From a virus, in the IMG/VR virus record IMGVR_UViG_3300048589_000908, positions 1-22,469 of that record: 22,469 bases of DNA; one strand, written 5' to 3'. The position numbers and the translations under genes are program-made. Every line of letters starts with the position of its first letter. The stretch's first letter is position 1. Under the pieces are notes generated by a model that was given only the letters and a program-made list of their open reading frames with translations, was not told the DNA's origin and did not search any database. Shown here one piece after another: positions 189 through 17,457 of the stretch.

Positions 189-1694
189 TCACGCGGCGAG
201 GTCGATCTGAGACAGGAGGTCGTCGAGGAGGACGTCCAGGGCGGCGCGGTAGCGCGCCGAGCGGATACCAAGATGACGCAGCACCGGCGGCTCTTCCGCG
301 GCGAAGTCCACGGTGAATTTGCCGAGCCGCAATTGCTCCGGCGAATTCTGGTCGCGGGTAAAGCCGACCTTGTAATCGATGATGTCGCCATCGGCTTTGA
401 GGTCGCGCAGCGCAAAGCGCATGGTGTCGAGCACGTCCTGCACCGTGCCGTAGTCGATGTTGCGGCGGCCGAGGAATCCGCGAAGCGTGCGCAGGAACAT
501 CAAGTGGATGAAATCGCGGCCGCGCACGATATGGTAGAATTGCCAAAGCGGGTCTTCGGAGCAATTGTCGGTGCCGATATAGACGAAGCCGCCGGACGCG
601 ATAGCGGTTTCGACGCCCATTTCGCCGCGCACCACGATGCCGGCATTTTGCGAGAGCAGGACTTGGCCTTCGGTCGCGCCATCGGTGAGCGAGAACTCGA
701 TCGGGCGGTTCGGACCGACGATGCCCTGCACCGGCTGGTTGGCCCAGGAATGAAAGGGCCGACCGCCGAATTCCTGATCGCGGCGCACCGCAATGCCGAT
801 CACCCGGGGCGAAGCGGGTTTCACGATCGGATTGACGCCGACCTTCACCGCGGTTTCGACCGGGATCAGGCGATGGCTCTGCATGGTCTCACGCCAGTCG
901 GTATAGGCTTGCTGCGTCGTCGCCGGCCCGTCGAGCACGGCCACTGCAAGCAGCTTTTCCAGCACCGGGGTGAGGGCGGCGCAAACCGGATTGGCAAGAA
1001 TCTCGACGGTCGCGGTCGCAGTCGGAAGCTCCTTTTCCGGGTCGTCGCCGCCGCCCGTAAACGACACCGTGAGCAATCCGGAGAGATGGGCGCCCGGATG
1101 GTCGATGACGAGTGACACCACCTTGCCGGCATTATCGCCTTCGCCGAGCACGGCATGGGCCTCTGGCAGGATTTTCCCGGGATCGTTGCCGCCGCCTGAA
1201 AACTCCACGGCCGGGGCCTCGGTCAAGTTTGTCCCTTGCGTGCCGAGCACCAGCGATCCGAGCCCCTGATATTGCTGCGACGTCAGGCCAGGCACCGCGA
1301 TCAGACGCGGGATCACGCCCAGCACGGGACCGGCCAGGGTGAAGGCCCAGATGCCGGTTTTTTGAGCGGACGATCCGATCGCATTGGCGATTGTGGCCCA
1401 GATATCGGACCCCTGTTCGATCCGCACGATCACGACCAGCGCCGCGACCTGGAATTCGCCGAGCTGCGCGTTGATGCCCTCGATTGCGTCGGGGAGTGTT
1501 CCGGTTAGACCGAGCGCGGTGAGCTTTGCCTTGTCGTCGCTGTAGAGGACGACCGGCGTGTTGACCGGAAACACATCCGCGTTGGCCTGCGGGGCGGTAC
1601 CGACAAGCCCGACCACGGACATGTCGCTGACGATCGCAGGCCGCGGTTGGTTATCGACCCGCGTGATCGAAATGCCGAAAGTGGGAGAGGACAT
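189..1694 (-). CDS. Contractile tail sheath protein (P2 gpFI-like) with an inserted beta-repeat segment
   Basis: This is a 501-residue tail sheath subunit, which would contract around the tube during DNA delivery. The N-terminus (SSPTFGISITRVDNQPRPAI) and C-terminus (residues about 390-490: RDFIHLMFLRTLRGFLGRRN, then a DGDIIDYKVGF motif) match the P2/Mu-type sheath pattern, as does the core segment ANPVCAALTPVLEKLLAVAV near residues 234-253. Residues about 142-233 hold an extra Gly-rich segment with two related halves, each containing an FSGGG or FTGGG turn. It interrupts the expected run from the 'RLIAVPGLTS' strand to 'NPVCAAL'. I chose the ATG at 1694 because GGAG lies eight bases upstream; the TTG one codon earlier is less likely. 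The tube gene follows directly, and a terminator-like hairpin precedes the gene. Confidence 0.93.
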   Translation of the reverse strand: MSSPTFGISITRVDNQPRPAIVSDMSVVGLVGTAPQANADVFPVNTPVVLYSDDKAKLTALGLTGTLPDAIEGINAQLGEFQVAALVVIVRIEQGSDIWATIANAIGSSAQKTGIWAFTLAGPVLGVIPRLIAVPGLTSQQYQGLGSLVLGTQGTNLTEAPAVEFSGGGNDPGKILPEAHAVLGEGDNAGKVVSLVIDHPGAHLSGLLTVSFTGGGDDPEKELPTATATVEILANPVCAALTPVLEKLLAVAVLDGPATTQQAYTDWRETMQSHRLIPVETAVKVGVNPIVKPASPRVIGIAVRRDQEFGGRPFHSWANQPVQGIVGPNRPIEFSLTDGATEGQVLLSQNAGIVVRGEMGVETAIASGGFVYIGTDNCSEDPLWQFYHIVRGRDFIHLMFLRTLRGFLGRRNIDYGTVQDVLDTMRFALRDLKADGDIIDYKVGFTRDQNSPEQLRLGKFTVDFAAEEPPVLRHLGIRSARYRAALDVLLDDLLSQIDLAA

Positions 1695-1927: not shown

Positions 1928-2134
1928 ATGATTTCAGAATCCACAATCACCTGTCCGAAATGCGCTCATAAATCCTTGGAGCGAATGCCGACCGACGCCT
2001 GTCAGTTTTTCTATGACTGCAAAGAGTGTGGTGAGCGGTTAAAGCCATTAACCGGCGATTGCTGCGTTTTCTGTTCCTATGGCGACTTTCCATGCCCGCC
2101 GATCCAAGAAGGCGTGAGTTGCCACCGGCCTTGA
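1928..2134 (+). CDS. Small Cys-rich GDCCVxC-type protein (phage cargo)
   Basis: This 68-residue protein is on the strand opposite to the phage genes. It is very rich in cysteine: CPKC (C9, C12), C24, CKEC (C31, C34), then GDCCVFCSYG (C45, C46, C49), C56 in PCPP and C65. The GDCCVxC signature followed by a 'CPPIQ' ending marks a small bacterial family, some members of which are annotated as selenoproteins; here the key positions are ordinary Cys codons. The family is often discussed in connection with metal handling, but its biochemical function is not settled. The start at 1928 is supported by GAAGGGA about ten bases upstream, and longer in-frame starts would overlap the sheath leader. It sits between the fibre genes and the sheath gene and looks like an inserted cargo (moron) gene. 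Confidence 0.82.
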   Translation: MISESTITCPKCAHKSLERMPTDACQFFYDCKECGERLKPLTGDCCVFCSYGDFPCPPIQEGVSCHRP

Positions 2135-13807: not shown

Positions 13808-14728
13808 CTAATGTCTGGCCTTGATCGCTTTGACGAAGCCGTCGAAGGCCTCCAGTGCATGACCGGTGGCGTCGGCAAGCCCGAGGGCCACCGCATCCCG
13901 GCCGCGATAGTCCTGCGCCTCGGTCGCCAAGGCGGCCTGCGCGGTGAAACGCGAGCCACGGTGACGCCCAACGCTCTCAGCAAACGTCTGCCGGGCCGCT
14001 TCGAGATCGCCGACCATCCGCTGGGCGACCTCGTCGGAAAGAGCTTCGAACGGGTTGCCCGCCATTTTTCGGGCGCCCGCCCGTAGCACCGTGACCTTCA
14101 CACCCTGCTGCTCAAGCGCTTTCGACCAATCAGTGTGCAACGTCACCACGCCGATCGAGCCGGCGCGCCCGTGTTCGGGCATCACGATCTGGCGCGCTGC
14201 GGACGCCAGGAGGTAACCCGCAGACAGGGCGTGATCGGTCAGAATGGCTAAGGTCGGCATTTCGGCCGACAGGCGGGCGATCAGGTCGGCGGTCTCGAAA
14301 GCGCCGGCAAGCTCGCCGCCAAAACTGTCGATCTCGAACACCGCGGCCTTAATGGCGGGGTTGCGCATGGCGCGCAGCACCTGCGCTTGCAATCCCTCAT
14401 AGGAAGTCCGCCCCGACATGGCGCCGACATAAGCACCCTTGTGCACCAGCGTGCCTTCGATCGGGATTAGCGCGACCCCATCGATCGTGTCGAACATGGC
14501 TGACCCGTTGGCCTCATATCGCCGACCCGTACGATCGCCGATACGACCAGCCAGTGGCCGGCCATCTTCAAACGCCGTATGATTGACGCGCTCGCCAGCT
14601 CCCTCCAGCACCACGCCGCCCTCGACGATCCGTCCGCCGATGCCGGCGAGCGCAGCATCCAGCTTGCCTGAATGCATCAAGAGCGGCGTGTTGAACACCC
14701 GCGCGGCCAGTTCAGGGCGCAGGATCAT
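13808..14728 (-). CDS. Capsid assembly protease, peptidase S49 family (lambda gpC-like)
   Basis: This 306-residue serine protease of the SppA type would process head proteins during capsid maturation. 'DTIDGVALIPIEGTLVHKG' (about residues 80-98) opens the ClpP-like fold. 'FEIDSFGGELAGAF' follows, then the nucleophile Ser169 in 'DHALSAGYLLASAA'. 'GSIGVVTLHTDWSKALEQQG' comes next, then the general-base Lys221 in 'GARKMAGNPFEALSDE'. Both catalytic residues are present, so the enzyme looks intact. Its ATG overlaps the stop of the terminase-portal frame (ATGA). It stops at a single TAG, after which the scaffold continues in the same frame. Confidence 0.93.
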   Translation of the reverse strand: MILRPELAARVFNTPLLMHSGKLDAALAGIGGRIVEGGVVLEGAGERVNHTAFEDGRPLAGRIGDRTGRRYEANGSAMFDTIDGVALIPIEGTLVHKGAYVGAMSGRTSYEGLQAQVLRAMRNPAIKAAVFEIDSFGGELAGAFETADLIARLSAEMPTLAILTDHALSAGYLLASAARQIVMPEHGRAGSIGVVTLHTDWSKALEQQGVKVTVLRAGARKMAGNPFEALSDEVAQRMVGDLEAARQTFAESVGRHRGSRFTAQAALATEAQDYRGRDAVALGLADATGHALEAFDGFVKAIKARH

Positions 14729-17457
14729 GCCAGGGCCTTTTGCTGCTTGGACGGCGATTGATCGTCAGTGTCACCGGAAGGCGCGGCCTTACGATCGAAC
14801 ATCGCATCGGGATCAAGGCCAAGCGCAAGCATCTCCTTGCGCTCGCGGGCTCGCTGCTGAATGGTCTCGAGATAATCCTCGCCCTGTTCGGAGCATTCGC
14901 GCTCAAGCGTCGACAAACCTGCCGCTAGGCGCTCGGTCGCGGCCGTCGCCTCCTTGTGCGGATCGACCCAGCCGCGACCGGGACCGATCCATTTGGCCGC
15001 GCAATAGGCAGCCTTGGCCTGCGCAAATTCAGGCGCCCCCTTGGGCAGCGTGACGACGCCACGGTCGATCGCTTCTTCCAGCCAGCCAGCATAGATCGGC
15101 GCCATAAAAGCTTGCGCGAAGTGCTCCTTGCGGGCGGTGAAGCCGCGCCAGACTTCGAGTAGAGCCGCGCGGGCCGAGGAATAGTTGACCTGGCCCCAGT
15201 CCATCGACAGCTGCTCATAGGTCATGCCCATGGCGGCTGCCACATTGCGCAGGCTCGCGCGCTCGAAGGCCTCGAATACGCTGTTGGGATGGTTCGGCTT
15301 GGTCAGTGTTACCTTCTCGCCCGGGAACGTAAACGCGATCTTGGCGCCACCGACATTGATCGGTGCGGCCTGGTAATAGTCGAGGCGCTGCTGCTGGTAG
15401 GCTGACAGCTCCTCGCCGCCGCCAAGCGCCGAGGCAAACTGGTCATGATCGAACGGGCTCTCGACAAAAGCCGCCATCACCGCGTTGAGGACGGCAGCCT
15501 GCAGTTCGGCCTCATCGTAGCGCCCGAGCATCCGCAACCGTTTGACGATCGGCGCCAGTACGGAGACGCCACGATACTGGCCGGCGCGGCCCGGTTCGAA
15601 GGCGTGCACCACCACCCGGCGGCCGAAGCTGGTCTCTCGCGGAATGCGCTCCCAGCTCCAGAACATCGGATGAAACACATTCTGGTCGCCCGGATGGGCT
15701 CGACGGATATGATAGGCGAGCGGTTCGCCATGTTCGCCAAGCTCGATGCCCTGCCGGCGCCAATAGGTATCGACCGCGTTGTAGGGATTCGATAGCCGGT
15801 CCGGATCGATCACCTGAACCGCGGTCGCGTATGGTCCGCCGCGCGGCAGCCAGAGAATCGCGGCAAGCGCCTCGCCATCCATCAGTCGATGCCGGACCCG
15901 TGCGTGCCGGCGGCAGAATTCATAGACCCGGTGCTCGGGGACTTCATCCTTCTTGCCGGGCCGAAAGCCGGAATCGATGAACGCGCGGCGGATCACAACG
16001 CCGCCGATCGGCCGCGCCAGAAGTTCGGCGAGATCGGTCCAGACCTCGCCCTGTTCGGTCGCTCCCCAAATCTCGTTCTGCTCGATCAGCCAGCTTTCCT
16101 GGCGGGTGCCGAACCCGCGGATGACATAGACCAGCCGGTTCTTCTGGACGTCGATGCCAGCGGTGAGCAGCAAAACGCCGTCCGGAATCTCACCCGAGCG
16201 GTAAGGCAGCTTCAGACGGGCGACATCCGCCCATTCCGGCGCATCCCCGCCGGTCGGGGCCCACAATTCGCCAAAGCCGCCATTGATGACAGTCTGGACT
16301 TCTTCCTGATCGCCCGAGTTCAACGCCTCGACATAGCGGCCGGCACGCTCGCCGAACGACACGAAAGGCGACGCAAGTCCTGAGACCCAGAAGCTCAGGG
16401 TCGTGCCCTCCGGCGGATCGCCAATCACGCGGCCGTCCGGTTCGATCCGCTGTCCTGGCGCAACATAGACGCCGTGGGCGTTCATCTCGAACTTGTGCTT
16501 CTCCTCGATGACGCCGTCACAATTGGGACATTGCAGAAAAGCGAGCCTCCGCGTCTCGATCGCGGTCGCATCGCGCTCGATGTTCTCTTTGCCGCCCTTC
16601 GGGGTGATGTCGATCTTCGGGATAACCAGGCAATCGAACCGCGGGATGAAATAGTCCTCGCAATGCGGACAGGGCCAGGCCCAATGGTAACGGGTCCCCC
16701 GCTGCCAAAGCTTCCAGATCGGGCTGTCGAGGCCCTCGATGTCGTCCTGCTCGACGACCTTCCAGAATTTAAGCCCCGTTGCCTCGTCTTTCTCGATCTC
16801 GACCGATCCTTCGGTCGGCGTCGACGTCACTCCGAGAGTAAAGTCGGCGTGGGTATCGCCGCGAACCTCAAGGAGGCGTACGGGGTCACCCTCGCCCTTG
16901 ATGTTCTTGGCCATGCCGTCGCGTTCATCGACGATGGCGAGACCTGCCGGATCCGACTTGAGCTGGTTCGCAGAGCCTGCCCAGGCCAGACGCACCGGCA
17001 CGCCGGAGACGATCTTGCGCGTCTTCTTGTTCTTCTTGCCGCGCGCCAGCTTGATCGACAGGCTCGGCGATCGGTTGAGCGCATCGTCGAACCGCGGCTC
17101 GAACTGGTCCGTCACGAAATTTCGGTCGGGGCCTGCATAGATGATCGGCACCGGACGCTGATCGAGCCGCGACAGAATCACATCGATAACAGAATCGGTT
17201 TTGCCCATCTGGCCGCCACAGACGAACACCACGGTATTGTAGCGCGCGTCCTCAAAGGCCCGCATGAACGGGATCATATAAGGGGTCAGCGCCGGGTCCT
17301 TCGGCCCGGGCCGGCCCGATGAGAGCGGATAGACCCGGTTCTCGCGCGCCCACTGGTCAGTCGATACCTTCCTCGTCGGGCGCAGGATCCTCGTCACCCG
17401 ATCGATAAGAACGACGGAGTTTTGCGATGCGGTCGGCCACTTCGGTGAGCGCATCAT
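14725..17457 (-). CDS. Chimeric large terminase (gpA-like) fused in frame to the C-terminal part of a portal protein
   Basis: This 910-residue frame has two parts. Residues 1 to about 518 are a GpA-type large terminase: Walker A 'CGGQMGKTDS' (80-89), Walker B 'LAIVDERDG' (173-181), zinc-ribbon pairs CPHC (263-266) and CPNC (310-313), and the first two acidic nuclease sites, D436 in AGIDVQ and D495 in FIDSG. After 'HRVYEFCRRHARVR' it switches to a lambda-family portal: 'RLMDGEALAAIL', 'AVQVIDPDRLSNP', 'RRVVVHAFEPGRAGQYRGVS' and 'AELQAAVLNAVMAAFVES'. The last part of the terminase nuclease, a gpW-like gene and roughly the first third of the portal are absent. An in-frame deletion fits better than a designed fusion. 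The start at 17457 overlaps the small terminase by 101 bp; GTG codons downstream are alternatives. Confidence 0.88.
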   Translation of the reverse strand: MMRSPKWPTASQNSVVLIDRVTRILRPTRKVSTDQWARENRVYPLSSGRPGPKDPALTPYMIPFMRAFEDARYNTVVFVCGGQMGKTDSVIDVILSRLDQRPVPIIYAGPDRNFVTDQFEPRFDDALNRSPSLSIKLARGKKNKKTRKIVSGVPVRLAWAGSANQLKSDPAGLAIVDERDGMAKNIKGEGDPVRLLEVRGDTHADFTLGVTSTPTEGSVEIEKDEATGLKFWKVVEQDDIEGLDSPIWKLWQRGTRYHWAWPCPHCEDYFIPRFDCLVIPKIDITPKGGKENIERDATAIETRRLAFLQCPNCDGVIEEKHKFEMNAHGVYVAPGQRIEPDGRVIGDPPEGTTLSFWVSGLASPFVSFGERAGRYVEALNSGDQEEVQTVINGGFGELWAPTGGDAPEWADVARLKLPYRSGEIPDGVLLLTAGIDVQKNRLVYVIRGFGTRQESWLIEQNEIWGATEQGEVWTDLAELLARPIGGVVIRRAFIDSGFRPGKKDEVPEHRVYEFCRRHARVRHRLMDGEALAAILWLPRGGPYATAVQVIDPDRLSNPYNAVDTYWRRQGIELGEHGEPLAYHIRRAHPGDQNVFHPMFWSWERIPRETSFGRRVVVHAFEPGRAGQYRGVSVLAPIVKRLRMLGRYDEAELQAAVLNAVMAAFVESPFDHDQFASALGGGEELSAYQQQRLDYYQAAPINVGGAKIAFTFPGEKVTLTKPNHPNSVFEAFERASLRNVAAAMGMTYEQLSMDWGQVNYSSARAALLEVWRGFTARKEHFAQAFMAPIYAGWLEEAIDRGVVTLPKGAPEFAQAKAAYCAAKWIGPGRGWVDPHKEATAATERLAAGLSTLERECSEQGEDYLETIQQRARERKEMLALGLDPDAMFDRKAAPSGDTDDQSPSKQQKALA
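15874..15906 (-). other. Probable deletion junction between terminase and portal
   Basis: The residues around positions 518-528 (HARVRHRLMDG) mark the change from terminase-like to portal-like sequence within one open frame. Upstream, 'VYEFCRRHA' is the strand that precedes the last third of GpA nuclease domains. Downstream, 'MDGEALAAIL' matches the mid-N-terminal region of lambda-type portals. The exact joining base cannot be fixed without homologues. Confidence 0.7.

Follow-up and report, generated by a model that had tools for sequence, protein, structure and literature searches.

A 22.5-kb virus record (IMGVR_UViG_3300048589_000908, analysed at its full length of 22,469 nucleotides and called the window below) carries genes for tail, head and packaging, and its tail sheath gene raises the question of whether a Gly-rich stretch within the sheath is a genuine addition to a P2-type sheath and, if so, where it would sit on the virion and what it could do there. 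The original prediction had described this stretch (window 996–1274, sheath residues about 142–233) as two related beta units inserted into the sheath. The coordinates were right, residues 142–233 corresponding to window 996–1271, and insert-less relatives set the best limits at residues 139–233 (996–1280). The features referred to in the text are as follows.

192..1694, minus strand: tail sheath protein of 501 aa, with its stop codon at 189–191
1281..1310, minus strand: left flank PRLIAVPGLT, residues 129–138, conserved core directly before the insert in the alignments
996..1280, minus strand: inserted module, residues 139–233, delimited by alignments with R2-pyocin, P2 FI and insert-less relatives; six strands predicted by AlphaFold2 with pLDDT about 83–92
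1137..1262, minus strand: unit 1, about residues 145–186, strands 142–150, 162–167 and 178–184 (unit HMM and AlphaFold2; approximate boundaries)
996..1127, minus strand: unit 2, about residues 190–233, strands 192–199, 208–213 and 226–233 (unit HMM and AlphaFold2; approximate boundaries)
972..995, minus strand: right flank ANPVCAAL, residues 234–241, conserved core directly after the insert in the alignments

The protein belongs to the contractile phage tail sheaths (PHROG_23), as indicated by a full-length profile match (residues 7–497 on profile positions 26–478, E = 1.8e-48) and by whole-chain fold comparison with the R2 pyocin sheath (VIA Z of 27–28 to 3j9r/6u5b/3j9q, rmsd of about 16 over 303–310 aligned residues). 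The R2-pyocin sheath 3j9q was also the nearest solved structure by sequence (E = 1.2e-24), and whole-chain fold searches returned sheaths, with R2 pyocin first, followed by A-1(L), phage 812, P1, Mu, T4 and others. A long plus-strand ORF lying over the sheath gene (144–1115) looks like an antisense open frame in GC-rich DNA and was rejected as a gene.

Whether the segment is an insertion was evaluated by aligning the sheath with P2-type sheaths and with its own relatives. The R2-pyocin sheath is contiguous across the site (query residue 142 aligns to chain residue 138 and query residue 237 to chain residue 139), and P2 FI can be aligned as far as sheath residue 141 (P2 144), after which about 90 residues are absent before the next aligned segment (sheath residue 299 = P2 212), so the segment is not an ordinary part of P2-like sheaths. 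Many of the 80 loci in viral contigs that were matched with the window's sheath code for a 415-aa sheath with a core about 70% identical but only 7 residues (e.g. SQRTGTD) where the window's sheath has 95; overall, its close relatives have 7–14 residues at the site. When 166 distinct sheaths were aligned after adding genome and further viral loci, the lengths at the site fell into three classes of 3–14, 77–95 and 160–169 residues; about 245 related sheaths were compared overall. These alignments confirm the segment as a real insertion relative to P2-type sheaths, as had been predicted. They also show, at the level of sequence, that the module is dispensable for a conserved sheath gene, because close relatives with an intact and conserved core are without it.

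The internal repeat was evident when the two units, about 40 aa each, were compared with each other: the BLOSUM62 local score was 76, against a mean of 23 (sd 4.8) for shuffled sequences, and none of the 2000 shuffles scored as high. The two units are therefore called homologous, in agreement with the original prediction. The consensus of one unit is roughly VTAITVTNPGSGYTSAPTVTFTGGGGTGATATAVLGTGADAGKV, from which the two copies in the window have diverged. AlphaFold2 placed the insert between a core strand (131–133) and a helix (236–248) and predicted three strands in each unit; in a four-unit relative, strands were likewise predicted throughout the insert. On the question of an Ig sandwich, matches to the sheath core took up the results of the whole-chain fold searches, and a Pfam search of the two- and four-unit inserts at E values up to 1 matched no family, Ig-like ones included. 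Against PDB sequences the module gave nothing convincing, the best hit (E = 0.0077) being a partial and unrelated-looking match, and neither Pfam nor PDB sequences matched it to any binding domain. The motif GSGYTSAP occurred in none of the papers in the collection searched.

Sheaths with an added domain are known. Evseev et al. 2022 (PMC9230969) distinguished one-domain sheaths (type 1) from two-domain sheaths (type 2), the latter including Jilinvirus Arya, ep3, Mu and SfV. Two-domain sheaths are common and have been modelled for the small phages Arya (477 aa), ep3 (475 aa) and Mu (PMC9230969), and both Arya (L003) and ep3 (L005) have this two-unit module in the corresponding position; the suggestion that such decoration is rarely described in small contractile tails thus does not hold. 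With a one-domain-like core and one extra, mostly beta domain (about 90 aa of insert relative to P2 and pyocin, with six predicted strands), the window's sheath probably belongs to type 2, and its accessory domain probably faces outward. Type 1 sheaths (P2 FI, R2-pyocin FIR2, Vibrio phage MAR) share the same core, with P2 and pyocin aligning on both sides of the insert, but have none or few residues where the window's sheath has 95, which sets it apart from the P2/Peduovirinae type; in our tree, the type 1 sheath of MAR (L009) was placed among two-unit sheaths. As for orientation, the added domains were described as lying away from the tube, with adhesion or stability proposed as their role (PMC9230969), in Mu gp39 a divergent domain III points to the outside (PMC11915804), and in R-type sheaths domain II is on the surface and domains III and IV, inserted in 'Russian doll' fashion, are expected to be there likewise (PMC6088184). 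By analogy with Mu gp39 domain III and R-type domain II, the module is likely to sit on the exterior of the sheath. Domains III/IV of the T4 gp18, phage 812, Mu gp39 and AlgoCIS sheaths are variable additions to the surface domain that face outward; a profile comparison with T4 gp18 and Mu gp39 for a common insert site gave no usable alignment and no sequence match. The type 2 kind of sheath and the published carriers Arya and ep3 are thus already known. The published account of type 2 sheaths does not contain the two-unit repeat, the even copy number or the recurrent gain and loss, and the word 'repeat' is absent from its text (PMC9230969); what is newer is the even-number rule, together with the recurrent switching at a single loop and the occurrence of the module across other virion proteins. 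What the additional phage sheath domains do was still being asked in a 2026 review (PMC13324602).

The number of units at the site was counted with the unit HMM. Two units were found in 60 sheath inserts, four in 5 and an odd number in none, and a second sample of 79 distinct sheaths contained 71 with two units, 3 with four, 2 with none and 3 apparently odd cases (L402, L374 and L388). Two of these three resolve to two units by eye: the third match in L402 lies in the core, and L374 has a second, degenerate unit that is visible by eye. The remaining one, L388, was cut by the counting limits. Across about 245 sheaths, whose retrieval began from two- and four-unit sheaths and whose units were counted with a profile trained on two-unit inserts, the unit count at the site is thus zero, two or four, with no clear case of an odd number. 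Such strict pairing suggests that a folded domain is being kept. Tandem arrays of at least two units in other viral proteins were also mostly even (53 even versus 8 odd), a count that includes related proteins, making its p-value only a guide. An alternation of unit classes in long arrays, in which unit n would be closer to n+2 than to n+1, was unsupported (19 arrays, p = 0.92). Within sheaths, class-specific profiles split first from second units in 120/120 cases, but on the training set. By unit class the four-unit inserts read 1-1-2-2 in L172, L097 and L148 and 1-2-x-2 in KA2-1, so that four-unit arrays seem, from these patterns, to have at least two modes of origin, nesting of a pair within a pair in the former and end-to-end addition in the latter.

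To follow the module through the family, a quick IQ-TREE phylogeny of 78 sheaths was built with the insert left out; the tree is unrooted and has some long branches. The insert-less state needs 10 changes on this tree, 9 of which are forced by starred (well-supported) branches, and the four four-unit forms occur in four separate places, having arisen several times; since the tree has no root, gains and losses are not separable. The closest pair with zero versus two units (L098/L122) has 89% core identity, and the closest pair with two versus four units (Arya/KA2-1) has 94.6%. In the DNA of the latter pair, part of the module region is about 60% identical, compared with about 90% in the flanks, a contrast that points to exchange and not to gradual divergence. 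The unit pair behaves as a unit of gain, loss and duplication. Single MAGs were seen to contain a pair of prophage-type sheaths of which just one has the module (L098/L122 in Alphaproteobacteria 6_bin.59 and L124/L134 in Devosia ginsengisoli), so the module does not go with a particular host. A different domain of about 110 aa occupies an N-terminal loop (sheath residues about 37–150) in L190, L242 and L010 (phage ZRG1), which are without the Gly-rich module; L190 is a close relative of the four-unit L172, and this N-terminal loop is another place in the sheath where insertions recur.

Similar beta repeats on other phage structural proteins had been anticipated, and the paired unit was indeed matched in tube, neck, baseplate, fibre and head proteins. 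A two-unit module lies inside a lambda-like siphophage tail tube protein (L308:2006-2884, PF16460), another follows a T4-type neck (head closure) domain (L256:1898-2842, PF11649), and the paired unit also occurs in large structural proteins of other viruses; several of the module-bearing non-sheath proteins face the virion exterior. On these sequence matches, the unit pair has become distributed over various structural proteins in tailed phages. The module alone (L030:3412-3672 and L040:3412-3894) matches PHROG_460, 708, 701 and 5342 (head closure, baseplate wedge, virion structural and tail fiber), and profile matches of the 'baseplate wedge', 'head closure' or 'tail fiber' kind can consequently stem from the module alone and mislead annotation. 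The Ig-like accessory domains of phage virion proteins are likewise promiscuous beta domains over sheath, tube, neck, fibre and head, but the module differs from them in consisting of two repeats and in lacking both a Pfam family and a convincing match among PDB sequences. It could represent an unnamed virion-surface domain made of obligate pairs of units of about 40 residues, which would be mobile in unrelated tailed phages among sheath, tube, neck, baseplate, fibre and head proteins, would grow only by whole pairs, end to end or nested, and would have a hot spot in one loop of the sheath; we consider this generalization evenly balanced between right and wrong.

Selection on the insert was estimated from eight near relatives, the window's sheath included. 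The pN/pS was 0.16 for the insert and 0.045 for the core (ratio 3.5, bootstrap 2.0–6.3), that is, the insert evolves about 3.5 times faster than the core, yet under purifying selection, constrained but relaxed; the C-terminal stretch 381–480 is nearly frozen (dN/dS = 0.003). Since it is constrained, the insert is not junk. Diversifying selection is ruled out by the insert's pN/pS of 0.16, with no sign of an arms race, and the lack of the kind of diversification that might be expected for a specific receptor binder counts against that role.

The explanation that we favour, and regard as probably correct, is an outer accessory two-unit beta-domain in the domain II loop that adds weak adhesion or stability and whose pair of units is mobile. 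The two homologous three-stranded units would form a small beta-domain within one of the loops of domain II, the sheath's surface domain, at the place of 'domain III'; six copies per ring would project outside the sheath, away from the tube, and the contractile core would be left unchanged. What the domain adds would be an accessory virion property: most likely the virion would stick weakly and multivalently to glycans on cells or in the environment, the alternative being added stability. Weak adhesion taken by itself falls a little short of an even chance, and the lack of a binding-domain match in Pfam or PDB sequences and of diversifying selection counts against it. A purely stabilising role, in which contacts between the modules of adjacent subunits would cement the sheath in its extended state, appears rather unlikely: stabilisation is a general proposal for added sheath domains, as with domain II of phage 812, which touches its neighbour (PMC9230969), and would fit the purifying selection on the insert, but relatives with 89–95% identical cores freely gain, lose and double the module, and the module is also found on neck, tube and fibre proteins, whose geometries differ. 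Frequent gain and loss, evolution faster than the core and many unrelated carriers would in turn suit a near-neutral mobile filler that is tolerated in a solvent-facing loop with no real benefit. We find this the least probable reading, given the clear purifying selection, though that might only keep the fold, and the strict pairing of the units, which suggests a kept folded domain.

The segment could also be ancestral and ordinary in the sheath family and have been lost by P2 and pyocin, which would make 'insertion' the wrong word. Its presence in both the Jilinvirus-like and the alphaproteobacterial sheaths, which lie on branches far apart in the tree, is compatible with this, the unrooted tree giving no direction, but insert-less forms occur in many separate clades and four-unit forms show that the unit number changes within the family too; we think an ancestral segment doubtful, and it would alter only the direction of change and not the nature of the domain. 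The role of an outer accessory domain of the favoured kind is directly testable, because natural near-isogenic pairs exist, with sheaths 85–95% identical in the core and differing by zero, two or four units, some of them in cultivated phages (Enterobacter phage Arya with two units and Klebsiella phage KA2-1 with four).

Two observations were made elsewhere in the window. A single ORF of 910 aa (14725–17457, minus strand) consists of a terminase large subunit (residues 1–521) that breaks off within the nuclease domain and is fused to a portal protein without its first ~106 residues; the two parts lie about 1.1 kb apart in relatives (e.g. L344 and L337), the joined form is also found in one other contig (L336), and it represents either a deletion in the population or an assembly artefact. 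Between the sheath and tail-fibre genes, in the opposite orientation, lies a gene for a GDCCVxC domain (seleno)protein of 68 aa (1928–2131, plus strand; NF041374, E = 4.3e-30), which is present in several, not all, of the near relatives and looks like a moron gene.
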